Source of the DNA: Devosia sp. 1566
Lineage (GTDB): Bacteria > Pseudomonadota > Alphaproteobacteria > Rhizobiales > Devosiaceae
Assembly (NCBI RefSeq): GCF_004005995.1
Contig: NZ_CP034767.1
Span: 744,001-808,000, forward strand
DNA length: 64,000 nt
Direction: 5' to 3'
Shown here: piece after piece, positions 8,887 through 63,568 of the stretch
Numbering within the stretch: the first letter of the stretch is position 1
Layout of the letters: every line of letters starts with the position of its first letter
Translations under genes and position numbers: made by a program
The notes under the pieces: model-generated
The model's input: the letters and a program-made list of their open reading frames with translations, nothing else
What the model was told of the DNA's origin: nothing
The model's database searches: none

Positions 8887-9837
8887 ATGAAGATGAACGA
8901 CGGATTAACGGTTTCCGATCCCACCGACCCACAAGAGGCGGCGGCCTTGCTGCGGGCCGGCCAACTCTGCGCTTTTCCAACCGAAACGGTCTATGGGTTG
9001 GGCGCTGATGCGACCAACCCCGATGCGGTGCTCGCGATCTATGAGACCAAGGGTCGGCCTCGGTTCAATCCGCTGATCATCCATTGCGCTGACATCGGCA
9101 TGGCCGAAGCACTGGCGCAGTTCTCGCCGCTGGCGCGGCGGCTCGCGGCGTTGTGGCCGGCGCCACTGACCTTGGTCCTGCCGGCGCGGGCGGGCAATGG
9201 GCTGGCCGATGTAGCGACGGCCGGGCTCGACACCGTGGCGATCCGCATTCCCGACCATCCGCTGGCGCTGGCAGTGATCCGTGCGGCGGGGCGGCCGCTG
9301 GCAGCGCCGTCGGCCAATCCATCAGGAAAGTTGTCGCCGACCACAGCCGAGCAGGTGCGGCGCGGTTTTGGGGGCAGGGTGCCGGTGCTCGATGGCGGGC
9401 CGTGCAAGGCTGGGGTGGAATCCACGATCATTGCTGTGGATGGTGAGCGGCTGGTGCAATTGCGCGCCGGGGCAATGGCGCGCAGCGAAATCGAGGAGCG
9501 CCTGGGCTTAGCGGTGGAACAGGCCAGCGCCGATGCGGCAGTGACGGCGCCAGGCATGCTGCGCAGCCATTATGCGCCGGGCGCGCTGATGCGGCTCAAC
9601 ACCACGCCGCAGCCGGGCGAGGCCTATCTGGCCTTTGGCGAAGCGCCCGATTTTGCGGGGCCGATGCGCAATCTGTCCCCCAGCGGGGATTTGCACGAGG
9701 CGGCGCGGAACCTCTTTTCCATGCTGCACGAGCTCGATGCCACGGGCGCCCCGACCATTGCGGTCGCGCCCATTCCCGCAACGGGGCTGGGGGAAGCGAT
9801 CAATGACCGGCTGGAGCGCGCGGCGGCCCCGCGCTAG
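8887..9837 (+). CDS. L-threonylcarbamoyladenylate synthase (Sua5/TsaC type)
   Basis: The enzyme makes threonylcarbamoyl-AMP from threonine, bicarbonate and ATP for the t6A37 modification of ANN-decoding tRNAs. The YrdC domain shows LCAFPTETVYGLGADA, KGRPRFNPLI and the SANPSGKLSPTT loop. About 110 further residues after APGMLRSHYAPG form the Sua5 domain, so this is the long Sua5 form (316 residues). ATG 8887 or 8893 are both possible starts. The upstream open frame toward 8188 is the antisense of the HDAC-like gene. Confidence 0.94.
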   Translation: MKMNDGLTVSDPTDPQEAAALLRAGQLCAFPTETVYGLGADATNPDAVLAIYETKGRPRFNPLIIHCADIGMAEALAQFSPLARRLAALWPAPLTLVLPARAGNGLADVATAGLDTVAIRIPDHPLALAVIRAAGRPLAAPSANPSGKLSPTTAEQVRRGFGGRVPVLDGGPCKAGVESTIIAVDGERLVQLRAGAMARSEIEERLGLAVEQASADAAVTAPGMLRSHYAPGALMRLNTTPQPGEAYLAFGEAPDFAGPMRNLSPSGDLHEAARNLFSMLHELDATGAPTIAVAPIPATGLGEAINDRLERAAAPR

Positions 9838-9855
9838 GGCGGCAGCCTCGCGGGC

Positions 9856-10797
9856 TTAGTCGCGGACCTTGTAGGGTTTCTGGTCGCGCCAGAAGCGCAT
9901 CAGGCTTTCAAGGTCCGGATCGCCGCCCGGGGGCAGCACGACCCGCAGGTTCACGTACAGGTCGCCATCGCCATAAAGACCCTTGCCCTTGAGACGCAGG
10001 GACTTGGAAGTATCGACGCCCGGCGGCAGGTTGAGCTCGACCGAGCCATCGAGCGTGGGGACGCGCACCTTGACCCCAAGCACGGCCTCGTAAAGCGTGA
10101 TGGGCAGATCGGTGCGCAGATCGCTGCCGTCGCGGCGGAAGGCCTTGGACTTCTCGAACTTGACGGTGACCAGCGCATCGCCGTTTTCCCCGCCGAAGGG
10201 GCTGGGCTGACCCTGGCCCTTGAGGCGGATCTGCTGGTTCTCCTCGACCTTTTCGGGGAGCTTGACCGACAGCACCTTGCCGCTGGGCATCCGCACCGGG
10301 ATGGAAGCCGCCTTGTGCGCGTCTTCGAGGGACACAGCAGCGGTGACGATGATGTCCTCGCCCTTGCTGCGCAGGCCCGCACTGGTGCTGGCGGTGCCGG
10401 TAAAGGGATCCCACTGGGCGCCGCCGGCACCCGCGCTGCGGCTGGCGCCACGCGGCTGGCCGCCAAAGCCGTTCATGAATTCCTTGAGGATGTCCTCGGC
10501 TGAAAAGCCGCCCTGCGCCGAGCGGGCGCCACCGGCGCTGCCATAAGCGCCCGGGTTGAAGCCGGGGTGACGCGGATTGCCATCGGCATCGATCTCGCCG
10601 CGGTCGAACTGCGCGCGTTTTTCGGCGTCGTTGAGCAGGTCATAGGCATTGGTCGCCTCAGCAAACTTGCTGTGCGCGCTGGGATCGTCTGGGTTCTGAT
10701 CGGGGTGGTACTTCTTGGCCAGCTTGCGATAAGCGGACTTGATGTCCTTTTCGCTCGCCGTGCGAGGCACCCCAAGTACGGTATAGGGATCGCGCAT
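9856..10797 (-). CDS. J-domain co-chaperone with DnaJ C-terminal domain (CbpA-like)
   Basis: A 313-residue DnaJ-class protein. The J domain starts at residue 3 (DPYTVLGV) and has the DnaK-activating HPD in KYHPDQNPDD (about residue 33). A Gly/Ala/Ser-rich linker (about 75-130) follows, then the two beta-barrel substrate-binding subdomains with RLKGQGQPSPFGGENGD and LRLKGKGLYGDGDLYV. There is no Cys-rich zinc finger, so it is CbpA-like rather than DnaJ proper. The ATG at 10797 fits the family better than a TTG three codons earlier. It is divergent from pdxH. Confidence 0.93.
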   Translation of the reverse strand: MRDPYTVLGVPRTASEKDIKSAYRKLAKKYHPDQNPDDPSAHSKFAEATNAYDLLNDAEKRAQFDRGEIDADGNPRHPGFNPGAYGSAGGARSAQGGFSAEDILKEFMNGFGGQPRGASRSAGAGGAQWDPFTGTASTSAGLRSKGEDIIVTAAVSLEDAHKAASIPVRMPSGKVLSVKLPEKVEENQQIRLKGQGQPSPFGGENGDALVTVKFEKSKAFRRDGSDLRTDLPITLYEAVLGVKVRVPTLDGSVELNLPPGVDTSKSLRLKGKGLYGDGDLYVNLRVVLPPGGDPDLESLMRFWRDQKPYKVRD

Positions 10798-57881: not shown

Positions 57882-57965
57882 AGATGGCGCGCCCTGAGAG
57901 GACAAGCCATGTGAGCCGATCTCCCCTTTCTTGCAGATCGTCTTGAAAAGGTGCAGGAGAGCGGC

Positions 57966-58922
57966 ATGAATGTGCTTGATCAATGGATCCGCATGTACGC
58001 CCGCAGCCGGATGACCCTCGTCCGCAGCCGGATGGTTGAGCCTTGGGGCTTCCGGCTCGATCCGGGGGCAATGATCGCCTTTCACCTCGTCTGGCAGGGG
58101 ACCGCTTGGCTTCGCCGGGCTGGCGAAGCGCCACTCCGGCTGGAAGAGGGTGATCTGGTGGTCCTGAGTGATGGAAAGGCCCACGATCTCGTGGCCAGCC
58201 CCAAGGGCGAGGCGCCCCCCGTCAGCCAGTTCGTGCAACAAGGATTTGATGTCACCAGCCAGTCTCCTGACGCGGTGATCTTTTGCGGGCGCTTCCAGGT
58301 GGATGGCACGCGCCGGCTGGGACAATCGGCGCTACCGCCCTGCATTCACCTGCCCGCCGCCGAGCTGCGCAAGGACAATGGCATTTTGCCGATCGTGCTG
58401 TTGCTGGCCGAGGAATTGGAGCACCAGGGCTTGGGCAATGAAAGCCTGGTGGAAAGTCTTGCCGACAGCCTGCTGGTTTACGTGCTGCGCCGTGCAGCCG
58501 AGCGCGCCGGGCATTCCGCCGGATGGTTGCCGGCAATGAAGGATCCCAACCTTGCCAAGGTGTTCCGGGCGATCCATGCCGATCCCGCCGCCAAATGGAC
58601 TGTCGAGGGCATGGCGAAGGTGGCGGGGCTGTCGCGCGCTGCCTTTGCCAGACGATTCCATAACCGGGCGGGAGAGCCGCCATTGACCTATCTTAAAGGC
58701 TGGAGGCTGACTCTGGCCGCCAGAAAGCTTGCCAGTGGCCCTACTTCGGTAGGGTCACTGGCAAGCGAAGCCGGCTACGCCTCGGAGGCGGCTTTCACGC
58801 GGGCGTTCAAGGACTATCACGGCCTCGCGCCTCGAGCTTATCTGCAGACGCTCCAAAGTGGCGCGCGCTTGCCTGATGGACAAGCAATCCAGGAACTGCG
58901 TCAAGCATCGCAAAGCGCCTGA
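57966..58922 (+). CDS. AraC family regulator with cupin sensor
   Basis: A 318-residue protein. The cupin-like N-terminal part has FRLDPGAMIAFHLVWQGTAW and LRLEEGDLVVLSDGKAHDL. The AraC domain follows with KWTVEGMAKVAGLSRAAFAR and GSLASEAGYASEAAFTRAFK. AGGAGA lies 6 bases before ATG 57966. Divergent from the NmrA gene, 110 bp apart, so a likely regulator of it. It is followed by the TPP riboswitch of the next operon. Confidence 0.92.
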   Translation: MNVLDQWIRMYARSRMTLVRSRMVEPWGFRLDPGAMIAFHLVWQGTAWLRRAGEAPLRLEEGDLVVLSDGKAHDLVASPKGEAPPVSQFVQQGFDVTSQSPDAVIFCGRFQVDGTRRLGQSALPPCIHLPAAELRKDNGILPIVLLLAEELEHQGLGNESLVESLADSLLVYVLRRAAERAGHSAGWLPAMKDPNLAKVFRAIHADPAAKWTVEGMAKVAGLSRAAFARRFHNRAGEPPLTYLKGWRLTLAARKLASGPTSVGSLASEAGYASEAAFTRAFKDYHGLAPRAYLQTLQSGARLPDGQAIQELRQASQSA

Positions 58923-58992
58923 TCCAAGATCAACTCCGCCAATACAGACATGTGCTTGCATTTGCCGGCGATGCTGCCCTATGCTGGCCCTA

Positions 58993-59080
58993 TCCACAGG
59001 GGTGCTCCGTATGGTCGGGGCTGAGATGAGGGCGGCAAGCCTTCGGACCCTATAGCTGATCTGGGTAATACCAGCGGAGC
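58993..59080 (+). promoter_or_regulatory. TPP riboswitch (THI element)
   Basis: The conserved TPP-aptamer parts appear in order: ACAGGGGTGC (58996-59005), GGGGCTGAGATGA (59017-59029, containing the CTGAGA pyrimidine-binding bulge), GGACCC at about 59045 and AGCTGATCTGGGTAATACCAGCG (59054-59076, near the consensus ACCTGATCTGGATAATGCCAGCG). It lies in the leader of the YkoF gene, 11-15 bases before its ATG, so TPP would repress translation or elongation of the whole operon. Confidence 0.93.
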
Positions 59081-59090
59081 GAGGCGGGCC

Positions 59091-59699
59091 ATGTTCTCAG
59101 GCGCACAGATTTCCCTTTATCCAATGACCGGCGACTTTGTCGGCGTGATCATGAACGCGCTGGGTGCGCTCGATCCCTATCGTGAACGCTTGCGCATCGA
59201 GACCGATGACGTCTCGACCCTGTTGGTCGGCCCGCCCGAAGTGCTGTTTCCGGCCATGCGCGATCTGTTCAGTGCCGCCGCGCGCGACGGCACCCATTGC
59301 GTGCTTTCGGCGACAATCTCGCGCGGCTGCCCGGGTGAGCCCGATGATGCCATCTGCCAGTCCAATTTGTTCGAGGGGCAGGCTGCGCCTCTTGAGGAGC
59401 GGCGCGCCAGTGCGCTTACGGCAGTGCAGGATGCGCCCGACATCGGCGTCTTCGGGGTGGCCCAATTGTCTCTCTATGTGATGGGACAGGGCCATCACAT
59501 GGACGAAATCTATGGCTGCATCGACTTTCTCAAACAGTCGGGCACCTTCGAAAAGTCCAAGCATTTCGCCACCAAGCTCAATGGCGACACCGGCGCGCTA
59601 TTCGCCACCATCGAGCAGGCCTTCTGCCGGTTTGGACCGGCTGAGGGACATGTCACCATCGACCTGACCGTGTCGGCCAACAGCCCCAGCGCGCGCTGA
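59091..59699 (+). CDS. YkoF-family thiamine/HMP-binding protein
   Basis: A 202-residue protein with two YkoF-like ferredoxin-fold halves, recognisable as ISLYPMTGDFVGVIMNAL (about 7-24) and, again, LSLYVMGQGHHMDEIYGCID (about 125-144). YkoF binds thiamine or its pyrimidine moiety in Bacillus. It is the first gene after the TPP riboswitch and precedes the ABC transporter, the known ykoF-thiXYZ setting. Likely soluble. Confidence 0.9.
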   Translation: MFSGAQISLYPMTGDFVGVIMNALGALDPYRERLRIETDDVSTLLVGPPEVLFPAMRDLFSAAARDGTHCVLSATISRGCPGEPDDAICQSNLFEGQAAPLEERRASALTAVQDAPDIGVFGVAQLSLYVMGQGHHMDEIYGCIDFLKQSGTFEKSKHFATKLNGDTGALFATIEQAFCRFGPAEGHVTIDLTVSANSPSAR

Positions 59700-59713
59700 G
59701 CGGAAGGTCCGGC

Positions 59714-60511
59714 ATGGCGCAGTTGTTCTCCTTCGGGCGCCTTGTCGCCCGGTTTCTCAGTCAAGCAGGGCCCGCCGTGTTTTCGGTGGTGACCCTGATC
59801 CTGGCCTGGGAAGCTTATGTGCAGCTTTCGGGCATCTCGCCAACGGCGTTGCCGGCGCCATCCCGCATTGTGGTTCAGGGCTACCAGAACCGGGACGCGC
59901 TGGCCGGGCACACATTAGCGACCTTGCAGGCCACCATTTTGGGTTTCGGCTGCTCGCTCTGCGCCGCATTGCTGTTTTCGGTCGTGGTGGACTTCTTTCG
60001 CCCGGTACGGCGGGCGTTGTTTCCGGTGTTCATCATCACCCAGACCCTGCCGCTGGTCGCCATCGCGCCGCTCATCGTGCTCTGGTTCGGCTTCGGGCTG
60101 ACGCCCAAGATCGTGCTGGTCGCGCTGGTCACTTTTTTCCCAATGCTGGTGGCGCTGGTGCAGGGCTATGACTCCACCGATCGCGATATCGAGGCGCTGC
60201 TGGCGTCCATGGGAGCCTCGCGCTGGCGCCGGTTCAGGATGTCGCGGCTGCCTTCGGCCTTGCCTTATTTCTTTGCCGGGCTGCGCATTTCCATCACCTA
60301 TGCCGTAGTCGGCGCGATCTTTGCCGAATATGCCGGGGCGGTCCGCGGCTTGGGCATCTATATTCTCAATGCCAAGAACAATTTTCGCCCCGACCTGGTG
60401 CTGGCCGCCGTCGTCGTCAGCGCGACGCTGACCCTGCTCCTGTTTGGCGCTACCGTCTTGGTGCAGCGGCTGACGATGCCCTGGACCCGCTTGGCGCAGA
60501 GGCGCCCATGA
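59714..60511 (+). CDS. thiX: ThiX-type ABC transporter permease for thiamine precursor
   Basis: A 265-residue permease with six helices. The ATPase-contact loop is IEALLASMGASRWRRFRMSR (about 157-176), and PLVALAPLIVLWFGFGL-like PLVAIAPLIVLWFGFG is typical of the NitT/TauT/ThiX group. Position after the TPP riboswitch and YkoF supports thiamine-precursor (HMP or formylaminopyrimidine) transport. Its stop overlaps the ThiZ start. Confidence 0.92.
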   Translation: MAQLFSFGRLVARFLSQAGPAVFSVVTLILAWEAYVQLSGISPTALPAPSRIVVQGYQNRDALAGHTLATLQATILGFGCSLCAALLFSVVVDFFRPVRRALFPVFIITQTLPLVAIAPLIVLWFGFGLTPKIVLVALVTFFPMLVALVQGYDSTDRDIEALLASMGASRWRRFRMSRLPSALPYFFAGLRISITYAVVGAIFAEYAGAVRGLGIYILNAKNNFRPDLVLAAVVVSATLTLLLFGATVLVQRLTMPWTRLAQRRP

Positions 60512-61257
60512 CCACGCCCAGGCTTGAACTGCGCAACTTGGGCAAGAGCTTTGGCGATTCCGAAGTTCTGGCCGACATCAACTTGAGCGTTGGAGCAGGA
60601 GAGTTCGTTTCGATCCTCGGCCCTTCCGGCGCTGGTAAATCCACCATCCTACAGCTGCTGACCGGAGCGGTGTCCACTGATGGTGGGGAAATGCTGTTTG
60701 ATGGCACGCCACTCGCCCCAAAGAGCCACCCCTTTGCCTTCATGCCGCAACGCGATGCGCTGATGCCGTGGCGGCGGATCATCGACAATGCCACTCTGGG
60801 CCTTGAGGTGGCGGGCATGACGCGCAAGGCGGCCCGGGCGGCAGTCCAGCCGCTCTTTGCTGAGTTTGGTTTGGCCGGATTTGAAAACTATTACCCCGCG
60901 CAGCTTTCCGGCGGCATGCGGCAGCGTGCAGCGCTGCTGCGCACAGTGGTGCAGCATAAATCCATGCTGCTGCTTGACGAGCCTTTCGGGGCCCTGGATG
61001 CCCTGACCCGCACGCGAATGCAGCGCTGGCTGGCTGGGATGTGGACGCGCCATCGCTGGACCGTGTTGCTGATCACCCACGATGTCCGCGAAGCGGTGCT
61101 GTTGTCCGACCGGATCTACCTGTTGTCGCCGCGCCCAGCGCGGATCGTGCGCCGCGTCGACGTGCCGCTCGAGCATCCGCGACCCCCAGCAGGGTCGGCG
61201 GTCATCGCTCAAATCGAAGCCGATATCCTGCAGACCTTGTTTGAACCGGAGGAATAA
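60508..61257 (+). CDS. thiZ: ThiZ-type ABC transporter ATPase
   Basis: A 249-residue ATPase with Walker A GPSGAGKST (about 37-45), signature LSGGMRQR, Walker B MLLLDEPFGALD and switch His LLITHDVREAVLL. It is coupled to the permease by a 4-bp overlap and to the binding protein 2 bp downstream. The operon context gives the name. Confidence 0.93.
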   Translation: MTTPRLELRNLGKSFGDSEVLADINLSVGAGEFVSILGPSGAGKSTILQLLTGAVSTDGGEMLFDGTPLAPKSHPFAFMPQRDALMPWRRIIDNATLGLEVAGMTRKAARAAVQPLFAEFGLAGFENYYPAQLSGGMRQRAALLRTVVQHKSMLLLDEPFGALDALTRTRMQRWLAGMWTRHRWTVLLITHDVREAVLLSDRIYLLSPRPARIVRRVDVPLEHPRPPAGSAVIAQIEADILQTLFEPEE

Positions 61258-61259
61258 TC

Positions 61260-62267
61260 ATGCCGCTTTCGCGCCTGCTGCTGATCCTTGGCCTTGCCGC
61301 CGCCCTCGCCAGCCCACCCGCACTGGCCCAGCCGGTGCCGGTGACCATGGCGCTGGACTGGACGCCCAACACCAACCATGTCGGCCTCTTTGTTGCCCAG
61401 GCCAAGGGCTTTTATGAGGAGGCGGGGGTCGCAGTTGAGATCCTGCCTTATTCCGACACTTCCGCTGGCACGCTCGTGGCCAATGGGGTGGTAGATTTCG
61501 GTATTCTTGGCTCCATCGGTCTGTTCACCCAGCGCACGGCCGGGGTTGATCTGGTCGCGACTTATGCACTGGTGCAGACCGAAACGGGGCGCCTTGTGTT
61601 CAACGGCGACCGGCAGGATATTCAAAGCCCCAAGGACCTCGACGGCAAGACCTATGCCGGCTTTGGCAGTGACTGGGAGAATGCCCTGATTGGCACGATC
61701 ATCCGCGCCGATGGCGGCCGGGGGGAATTCGAGACGGTCACCTTGGGCACTTCGGCCTATGAAGCGCTGGCTAACGGCGCGGTGGATTTCACCCTCGAAG
61801 TTTATACCTGGGAGGGGGTCAAGGCCGAACGCGATGGGCGATCACAGCGCGCCTTCCGCTATGCCGATTGGGGCGTGCCCGACCAGCACACCAACTTCAT
61901 CGGCACCACTGGCGCCTTTTTGGCTGAGCACCCGGACACTGCCAAGGCGTTCCTTGGCGCGAGCCAGCGCGGTTACGCCTATGCCGTCGCCCATCCCGGC
62001 GAGGCGACCGATATTCTGGTCGCAGCCAATAGCGACGCGCTGCTGGACCGGGACTTTGTGCGCGCATCGCTGCAGGCGCTGATCGATGGGCACTACCTGC
62101 GGGCCGAGAATGGGGCCGTGGGCGTCATCAATCCCGCCAAGATGGAGGCGATGGGCACGTTCCTGTTTGAAGCCGGCATCCTCAAGGACGGCGACGGCAA
62201 TCCTCTGGCCGCCAAGCCTGACTTCTCCGGCTACTATACCAGCGCCTATGTGGAAGCCGCGCCGTGA
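61260..62267 (+). CDS. thiY: ThiY-type pyrimidine-precursor-binding protein (NMT1/THI5-like)
   Basis: A 335-residue periplasmic protein. Signal peptide to about residue 22 (PPALAQ). The NMT1/THI5-like fold shows VTMALDWTPNTNHVGLFVAQ (about 26-45) and FEEAGVAVEI-type YEEAGVAVEILPY. ThiY binds formylaminomethyl- or hydroxymethylpyrimidine. Completes the ThiXYZ importer. Its stop overlaps the GTG start of the next gene by 4 bp (GTGA). Confidence 0.93.
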   Translation: MPLSRLLLILGLAAALASPPALAQPVPVTMALDWTPNTNHVGLFVAQAKGFYEEAGVAVEILPYSDTSAGTLVANGVVDFGILGSIGLFTQRTAGVDLVATYALVQTETGRLVFNGDRQDIQSPKDLDGKTYAGFGSDWENALIGTIIRADGGRGEFETVTLGTSAYEALANGAVDFTLEVYTWEGVKAERDGRSQRAFRYADWGVPDQHTNFIGTTGAFLAEHPDTAKAFLGASQRGYAYAVAHPGEATDILVAANSDALLDRDFVRASLQALIDGHYLRAENGAVGVINPAKMEAMGTFLFEAGILKDGDGNPLAAKPDFSGYYTSAYVEAAP

Positions 62268-63568
62268 CACCAAGGCGGCGCATGGGGCTCAACGCGGTGA
62301 TCTATGGGCTGGGGAGTCATGAAGCAGGCTGGCGCATGCCTGAAAGCAATGCGTTGGCCTCGACCGATCTGGGCTATTGGACCGACATCGCTCGTCGGGC
62401 TGAAGCGGGTGGGTTCGATGCTTTGTTTCTGGGCGATGTGCTGGCGCTGCAGCAAGGCGCTGACCGGCACCTCTCGGACGCGATGGACCCCTTCGTCATC
62501 CTTTCGGCGCTGGCGGCAGTGACCGAGCGGATCGGGCTAATCGGCACGGCCTCGACCAGCTTTGATCATCCCTTTCATCTCGCCCGCCGCTTTGCTTCCC
62601 TCGATCACCTCAGCGGTGGCCGGGCGGGCTGGAACATCGTCACCTCCTCCAACGCCCTCGAGGCCCACAATTTCGGGCTCGACGCCATGCCTGACCATGG
62701 CGAGCGCTATGCGCGGGCCGCAGATGTCACCGCGGCTGTGCTGGCACTTTGGAGTTCCTGGCAGGCCGATGCCCGGATCGCGGACAAGCAGGCGGGCCGC
62801 TATCTTGATCTCGCAAAGGTTCGGACGGTAGATCATCACGGTCAGTTCGTGCGAACCCGCGGGCCGCTGAACGTGCCCCGCTCGCCGCAGGGCCGCCCTT
62901 TGCTGGCGCAGGCCGGCGCCTCCGAGGCCGGGCGTGATTTCGCGGTGCGCTATGCCGATCTGGTGTTCACGGTTCAGGCCGATCTTGCCGAGGCGCAACT
63001 GTTTTATCGCGACATGAAGGCAAGGGCTTCCCGCCACGGCCGGCCACCGGAAAGCCTGCTGATTTACCCTGGCATCGTGCCTATTGCTGCCCCGACGCGG
63101 GCGCAGGCGGAAGACCGCTTGGTGCAGTTGAATGGGTTCATGGTGCCTGAGCACGCGCTGGCCAAGCTCTCCGCGTTCCTGGGCACCGACTTGTCTGCGG
63201 CACAGCTGGATGACCCGCTGCCTCCTTTTGTCGGTGCAGGGGCCCCCAGCCAGTCGAGTCAAAGCCGCGTGGCTGTTTTGGTGGGCATCGCCAAACGAGA
63301 GGGGCTCAGCCTGCGGCAGTTGCTGATGCGCCTTGCCAGCGGTCGAGGGCACCTGCTGGCGGTCGGAACGGGCGCCGAGATCGCGGCGACCATGCAAGAC
63401 TGGTTCGACCAAGGGGCCGCGGACGGCTTTAACGTGATGGCACCGTTGATGCCGGCCGATCTGCAGAGCTTTGTGGATCTGGTGATACCAGAGCTCACGG
63501 CATCGGGCCTGTTTACCGCAAGCGGGGAAACGCTGCTGCGGCAGCGCGTCCAACTCGGTCCGGCATAG
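62264..63568 (+). CDS. LLM flavin monooxygenase of the NtaA/SnaA/DszA family in the TPP operon
   Basis: A 434-residue flavin-dependent monooxygenase of the group that acts on nitrilotriacetate, pristinamycin and dibenzothiophene sulfone. Marks: SFDHPFHLARRFASLDHLSG, GRAGWNIVTSSNALEAHNFG, RPLLAQAGASEAGRDFA and the late GAPSQSSQSRVAVLVG. Start GTG 62264 overlaps the ThiY stop, ATG 62282 is an alternative. It is the last gene of the ykoF-thiXZY transcript, so controlled by TPP. A substrate related to thiamine or its pyrimidine or thiazole part is the simplest inference; not shown. Confidence 0.9.
   Translation: MTPRRRMGLNAVIYGLGSHEAGWRMPESNALASTDLGYWTDIARRAEAGGFDALFLGDVLALQQGADRHLSDAMDPFVILSALAAVTERIGLIGTASTSFDHPFHLARRFASLDHLSGGRAGWNIVTSSNALEAHNFGLDAMPDHGERYARAADVTAAVLALWSSWQADARIADKQAGRYLDLAKVRTVDHHGQFVRTRGPLNVPRSPQGRPLLAQAGASEAGRDFAVRYADLVFTVQADLAEAQLFYRDMKARASRHGRPPESLLIYPGIVPIAAPTRAQAEDRLVQLNGFMVPEHALAKLSAFLGTDLSAAQLDDPLPPFVGAGAPSQSSQSRVAVLVGIAKREGLSLRQLLMRLASGRGHLLAVGTGAEIAATMQDWFDQGAADGFNVMAPLMPADLQSFVDLVIPELTASGLFTASGETLLRQRVQLGPA

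Follow-up and report, generated by a model that had tools for sequence, protein, structure and literature searches.

A TPP riboswitch operon joining YkoF-ThiXZY genes to a luciferase-like flavin monooxygenase in Devosia sp. 1566

YkoF-associated ThiXYZ transporters are the closest described systems to the operon reported here, which lies in a 64,000-nucleotide stretch of Devosia sp. 1566 (the window; C1:744001-808000 of genome G000, one contig of 4.17 Mb). The operon closes with an NtaA/DmoA-family flavin monooxygenase gene, a luciferase-like monooxygenase (LLM). TenA- or YlmB-type enzymes are the usual partners in ThiXYZ operons. The Devosia operon resembles these systems in gene content, in its thiamine pyrophosphate (TPP) riboswitch, and in its NMT1-type ThiY, but it has the LLM where the TenA/YlmB-type enzymes stand. 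It also differs in sitting in genomes without a ThiD over the cut-off, where imported hydroxymethylpyrimidine (HMP) or formylaminopyrimidine (FAMP) would be unusable for thiamine synthesis by known routes. Excerpts of two reports describe ThiXYZ or ThiY as transporting HMP, base-degraded thiamin, and/or B1 (PMC10881298, PMC5627462). Among the titles and beginnings of abstracts listed by a literature search, none dealt with a TPP riboswitch/ThiXYZ operon with a luciferase-like monooxygenase.

Several LLM enzymes form a second group of relatives. DmoA, DszA(BdsA), and NtaA have their family and fold in common with the Devosia LLM; they serve organosulfur or chelator catabolism and are not known to be vitamin-regulated, whereas the Devosia LLM is predicted to be under a TPP riboswitch. 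The riboflavin lyase RcaE, which shares only 30-31% identity with the Devosia LLM, breaks its vitamin down; a TPP-repressed LLM would, by contrast, be expected to help obtain the vitamin. The best PDB sequence match of the LLM is YtnJ/CmoJ (318.9 bits), with 38% identity when the structures are aligned, and CmoJ and YxeK are the same kind of LLM enzyme. According to excerpts of the respective reports, CmoJ is a C-S bond-cleaving monooxygenase acting on alkylcysteine sulfoxide (PMC10863075); YxeK cleaves N-acetyl-S-(2-succino)cysteine, and ATP-binding cassette (ABC) transporter genes are also present in its locus (PMC9706529). Unlike the CmoJ and YxeK operons, the Devosia operon contains no N-acetyltransferase or deacetylase; it also has no CmoO-like sulfoxidase, the further partner in the case of CmoJ, and it has a TPP riboswitch and a ThiY-type binding protein.

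Organization of the operon

The riboswitch and the five genes form a single, tightly packed operon:

58988-59100, plus strand: TPP riboswitch aptamer (THI element), RF00059 covariance model
59091-59699, plus strand: YkoF-family thiamine/HMP-binding protein, PF07615, 114.4 bits
59714-60511, plus strand: ThiX-type ABC permease, PF00528
60508-61257, plus strand: ThiZ-type ABC ATPase, PF00005
61260-62267, plus strand: ThiY-type (NMT1/THI5-like) substrate-binding protein, PF09084, 194 bits
62264-63568, plus strand: NtaA/DmoA-family (CmoJ-like) LLM monooxygenase dependent on reduced flavin mononucleotide (FMNH2), PF00296, 168 bits, and TIGR03860, 493.5 bits

The aptamer matches the full RF00059 model (positions 1-105) with 59.1 bits, over the gathering threshold of 54.3 (E 4.8e-9). 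It shares 10 bases with YkoF, the start codon among them, which suggests that translation initiation of YkoF is likely under TPP riboswitch control. The gaps along YkoF-ThiX-ThiZ-ThiY-LLM are 14, -4, 2, and -4 bases; the ThiX/ThiZ overlap reads ATGA, and the ThiY/LLM overlap reads GTGA. A sequence-only reading of the window had named the THI element at the operon head, the four genes YkoF, ThiX, ThiZ, and ThiY with their coordinates, the GTGA junction, and an NtaA/SnaA/DszA-type monooxygenase. The family models confirm the element and the four genes, the junction is as it was read, and the enzyme class holds well over the TIGR03860 cut-off of 279.7 bits.

The closest PDB entry to YkoF is 1s99 (identical sequence in 1sbr; 96.8 bits). 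The minimum-energy fold of the leader gave no informative structure (z 0.29). Between 58700 and 64000, 0 promoter-like sites (0.8 expected) and 3 terminator-like sites (4.9 expected) were found. An AraC-type regulator with a Cupin_6 domain is encoded at 57951-58922, immediately upstream of the operon on the same strand.

Conservation of the monooxygenase link

The family sample consisted of 136 genomes, and a match was counted as an LLM copy when its best piece had at least 61% identity. Nineteen copies were found in 18 genomes, one of which (G016) carries two (L007 and L017); the remaining family matches, down to E 1e-100, have at most 46% identity. The LLM lies directly after ThiY in 17 of the 19 copies, although the contig of G036 starts 288 bases before the LLM and includes only the end piece of ThiY. 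A TPP riboswitch heads the operon in 15 of the 19. Two further copies (G036 and G070) have the operon head at a contig end, where the riboswitch is not scorable, and the search at the G018 and G122 LLM loci found none. YkoF is present in 17/18 genomes with the LLM versus 31/118 of the others, in counts that ignore kinship. The ThiX counterparts at the same position in the LLM-bearing loci are 73-90% identical, and 65% in one locus of G018 (L093). Close LLM homologues thus stay with ThiXYZ, a TPP riboswitch, or both, and the tie to TPP regulation proposed by the sequence-only reading is borne out.

Outside the family, the arrangement TPP-X-Z-Y-LLM was found in L014, with no YkoF found there; this contig belongs to a metagenome-assembled genome labelled Mesorhizobium, so mis-binning is possible. 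Among 397 genomes from the order, an LLM match with an E value no higher than 1e-130 occurs in three, each of them a member of the same family. A plasmid search gave 77 records, every one below 60% identity. LLM-like proteins of 61-72% identity, among the best 120 of 7908 matches, are named Mesorhizobium, Tianweitania, and Cypionkella.

Phylogenetic analysis (omitting the broken, partial, or duplicate rows L011, L021, L034, L035, L036, and L083) split the LLM clade from its relatives of 42-46% identity with support of 100/100. Across 13 full loci, the LLM distances track the ThiX (r 0.95) and ThiY (r 0.93) distances, and the ThiZ distances less (r 0.78). The median dN/dS of 0.094 (74 of 78 pairs usable) indicates purifying selection, and is rough because the median dS of 1.59 is near saturation.

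A complementary loss was found in D. naphthalenivorans (G030). Its locus L009 carries the TPP riboswitch (9743-9855) and then a 49-codon stub (9846-9995), the stop of which overlaps the LLM start (9992) as ATGA. The stub begins like YkoF, and its end resembles, in the same frame, the ThiY end of the sister locus L017. Most of YkoF through ThiY has therefore been deleted in frame; as read from the sequence, the deletion removed the transporter and left the LLM under the riboswitch. Elsewhere in G030 (L087), there is a TPP-headed YkoF-X-Z-Y operon without the LLM. The G030 LLM clusters with the LLMs of L008 and L017, and the G030 ThiY clusters with the ThiY of L008, L017, and the LLM-less L068, as expected if two operon copies lost complementary parts. 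L009 and G030 are apparently one assembly and were therefore counted as one observation. In L009:9743-12483, the LLM is followed by an overlapping gene for a Bcr/CflA-type (efflux-type) transporter of the major facilitator superfamily.

A generic LLM gene might have hitchhiked in the operon as an accidental neighbour. Other LLM genes do exist in these genomes, and the LLM is missing from 31 of the 48 genomes with YkoF. However, the distinct clade, the position after ThiY, the purifying selection, and the complementary loss in G030 argue against this explanation, which was rejected as highly improbable. The association of the LLM with the thiamine operon is genuine and appears selected, and the LLM is very probably part of thiamine acquisition.

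Thiamine gene content and the proposed function

Searches of the Devosia sp. 1566 genome gave no match to ThiC, ThiM, ThiG, or TenA, and no ThiD over the cut-off (best match 26.2 bits; cut-off 204.95). Its single TMP-TENI protein is under the cut-offs for thiamine phosphate synthase (42.6 versus 145.1 for TIGR00693; 133.5 versus 218), and by these scores a canonical ThiE is missing. This divergent ThiE-like protein is encoded at L106:4424-5113 (about 2752423-2753112 of C1); TMP-TENI family matches occur in 132/136 family genomes, including those without other thiamine-synthesis genes. Thiamine pyrophosphokinase (TPK) is over its cut-off (81.7 bits; 76.4), as is ThiB (321.8 bits; 317.15), which is found with ThiP- and ThiQ-like genes at a second TPP riboswitch. 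With TPK and ThiB but none of these synthesis or salvage genes over cut-off, Devosia sp. 1566 is a predicted thiamine auxotroph, importing and using the vitamin intact. The other genomes with the LLM have similar contents. ThiC, ThiD, and ThiG are all under cut-off or lacking in 16 of the 18, and are over cut-off in G010 and G036; ThiM was found in none, TenA in one, and TPK over cut-off in 17. G070, the sole one without such a TPK, is 62% complete.

The initial idea was that the LLM adds a new step to the salvage of thiazole or pyrimidine bases; it might, for instance, replace TenA oxidatively in the handling of FAMP or aminomethyl-pyrimidine. The ThiXYZ salvage layout is present: a TPP riboswitch precedes the genes for an NMT1-like binding protein, a permease, and an ATPase. 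TenA occurs in 1/17 YkoF genomes with the LLM versus 13/31 without it (Fisher p 0.009, ignoring kinship), and a short-chain dehydrogenase/reductase (SDR) gene that overlaps the LLM in G122 could reduce an aldehyde product. Kinship confounds the TenA contrast, however, and a strong ThiD is also missing from 19 of the 22 TenA genomes. Genomes with the LLM have ThiD over cut-off in 2/18, ThiG in 2/18, and ThiM in 0/18, and Devosia sp. 1566 does not have the genes required for HMP/FAMP use (ThiD, canonical ThiE, and a thiazole source). A freed base therefore cannot become thiamine by a known route in Devosia sp. 1566 or in the other LLM genomes without these genes. By sequence, the closest solved structure to ThiY is 4nmy (122.9 bits), described as a thiamin-bound protein, ahead of the FAMP-binding 3ix1 (76.6 bits); ThiY and 4nmy both contain the stretch LDWTPNTNH. 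The predicted ThiY model ties the two (Z 17.7 and 17.4), and its pLDDT of 52.9 is too poor for a pocket comparison. Base salvage was rejected, since the genes to use a base are missing in Devosia sp. 1566 and in 16/18 genomes with the LLM, and it is now improbable. The sequence-only reading had offered thiazole, oxidised thiamine, or a pyrimidine derivative as the salvaged compound. With ThiD, ThiC, ThiM, ThiG, and TenA missing, the thiazole and pyrimidine options fall, and oxidised thiamine survives as an altered, intact vitamin.

TenA was found in 22/136 family genomes (for example G044, G075, and G087); some of the 19 without an over-cut-off or otherwise strong ThiD have weak kinase-family matches.

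We infer the following substrate, product, and order of steps for the LLM route. The operon would be a second, TPP-repressed route of thiamine acquisition beside ThiBPQ import and TPK. When TPP is low, the riboswitch would free YkoF translation, and the coupled genes would follow. ThiY would capture a thiamine-like molecule, ThiX/ThiZ would carry it into the cell, and YkoF would bind it in the cytoplasm. The LLM, with FMNH2 and O2, might then oxidatively strip a modification and regenerate thiamine for TPK. Such conversion of altered thiamine to usable thiamine by the LLM is the leading explanation, with a probability of roughly 0.45. The modification that would agree best with the LLM kin CmoJ, YxeK, and DmoA, which are C-S cleaving, is an S-alkyl group carried by thiamine in its ring-opened thiol form; S-dealkylation would yield a thiol that could re-close to thiamine. 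That the modification is S-alkyl is judged rather unlikely. Riboswitch-controlled vitamin repair of imported damaged thiamine by the LLM, for example by S-dealkylation with S-succinyl adducts included, is doubtful as a full scheme.

The LLM might alternatively serve detoxification: ThiXYZ would admit toxic or damaged thiamine analogues, and the co-expressed LLM would oxidise them to harmless products. The same regulation and the patchy presence of the LLM would fit, as would the overlapping efflux-type transporter gene in G030. HMP analogues such as bacimethrin, however, become toxic only via ThiD, which is missing over the cut-off in 16/18 genomes with the LLM; only intact thiamine analogues therefore remain as toxins, and detoxification is rather unlikely.

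If conversion of altered thiamine is the function, a bacterium without known thiamine-synthesis genes could live on altered thiamine in soil, and this way of obtaining B1 would be separate from making it, salvaging its bases, or taking it up directly. Production of thiamine from a derivative by the LLM would also be a flavin reaction new for a vitamin, and would mean that a currently unmeasured part of the environmental B1 pool is usable. Environmental surveys, according to excerpts of their reports, count ThiY as a pyrimidine-vitamer transporter (PMC10881298, PMC12637900). ThiD over the cut-off is missing in 45/48 family genomes with YkoF, so the pyrimidine label cannot lead to thiamine there by known routes. 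Some "pyrimidine salvagers" may instead use thiamine or thiamine derivatives.

Divergent, broken, and absent copies

Several copies weigh against the conversion of altered thiamine. The divergent G018 copy (61% identity; L093, C8:355500-368500) lies in a densely packed array of rhodanese-LLM2-YkoF-X-Z-Y-LLM, where the search found no TPP riboswitch. LLM2 is DmoA-like (463 bits to DmoA), and a third LLM and an SfnB-like gene (256 bits, under the cut-off of 431) are neighbours on the other strand. This context suggests that the LLM substrate may contain sulfur, and that one branch may use it for sulfur. In G122, the LLM overlaps the SDR gene and precedes a glutathione S-transferase-like gene; the YkoF-XZY genes of G122, headed by a TPP riboswitch, lie elsewhere. 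Beyond its absence from many YkoF genomes, the LLM switches state eight times on the ThiY tree (which omits two partial rows, L065 and L077). Three copies are broken, with pieces in different frames: L034 (G073), L035 (G038), and L036 (G036). G036 has synthesis genes, an LLM in pieces, and no YkoF found, and G065 (77% complete; ThiC and ThiD) has a short LLM remnant after ThiY. However, the LLM is also split between two frames in G038 and G073, which have no synthesis genes, and G010 combines synthesis genes with an intact LLM operon; decay of the LLM therefore does not track prototrophy cleanly.

The G018 array would fit scavenging of sulfur (or carbon/nitrogen), in which an imported thiazole or thioether compound is cleaved at C-S by the LLM and the riboswitch reflects transporter ancestry. 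The 12 homologues of 42-46% identity (L037-L048) point the same way; none is beside a close YkoF-ThiXZY, and two adjoin distant ABC genes. However, a TPP riboswitch stands over 15/19 copies, the riboswitch-LLM link outlived transporter loss in G030, and a sulfur function is not expected to be shut off by TPP. Scavenging is thus unlikely.

Loci were retrieved from 28 of the 31 YkoF genomes lacking the LLM, all but G119, G126, and G127. A search for LLM remnants in L082, L087, and 25 loci of LLM-less genomes (27 loci in total) gave one hit (L067); L080, L081, and L085 were left out. In these three loci (G118, G120, and G129), YkoF homologues occur without a close ThiXZY alongside. The G021 match was counted with one internal stop, and its open frame still runs to 415 residues.

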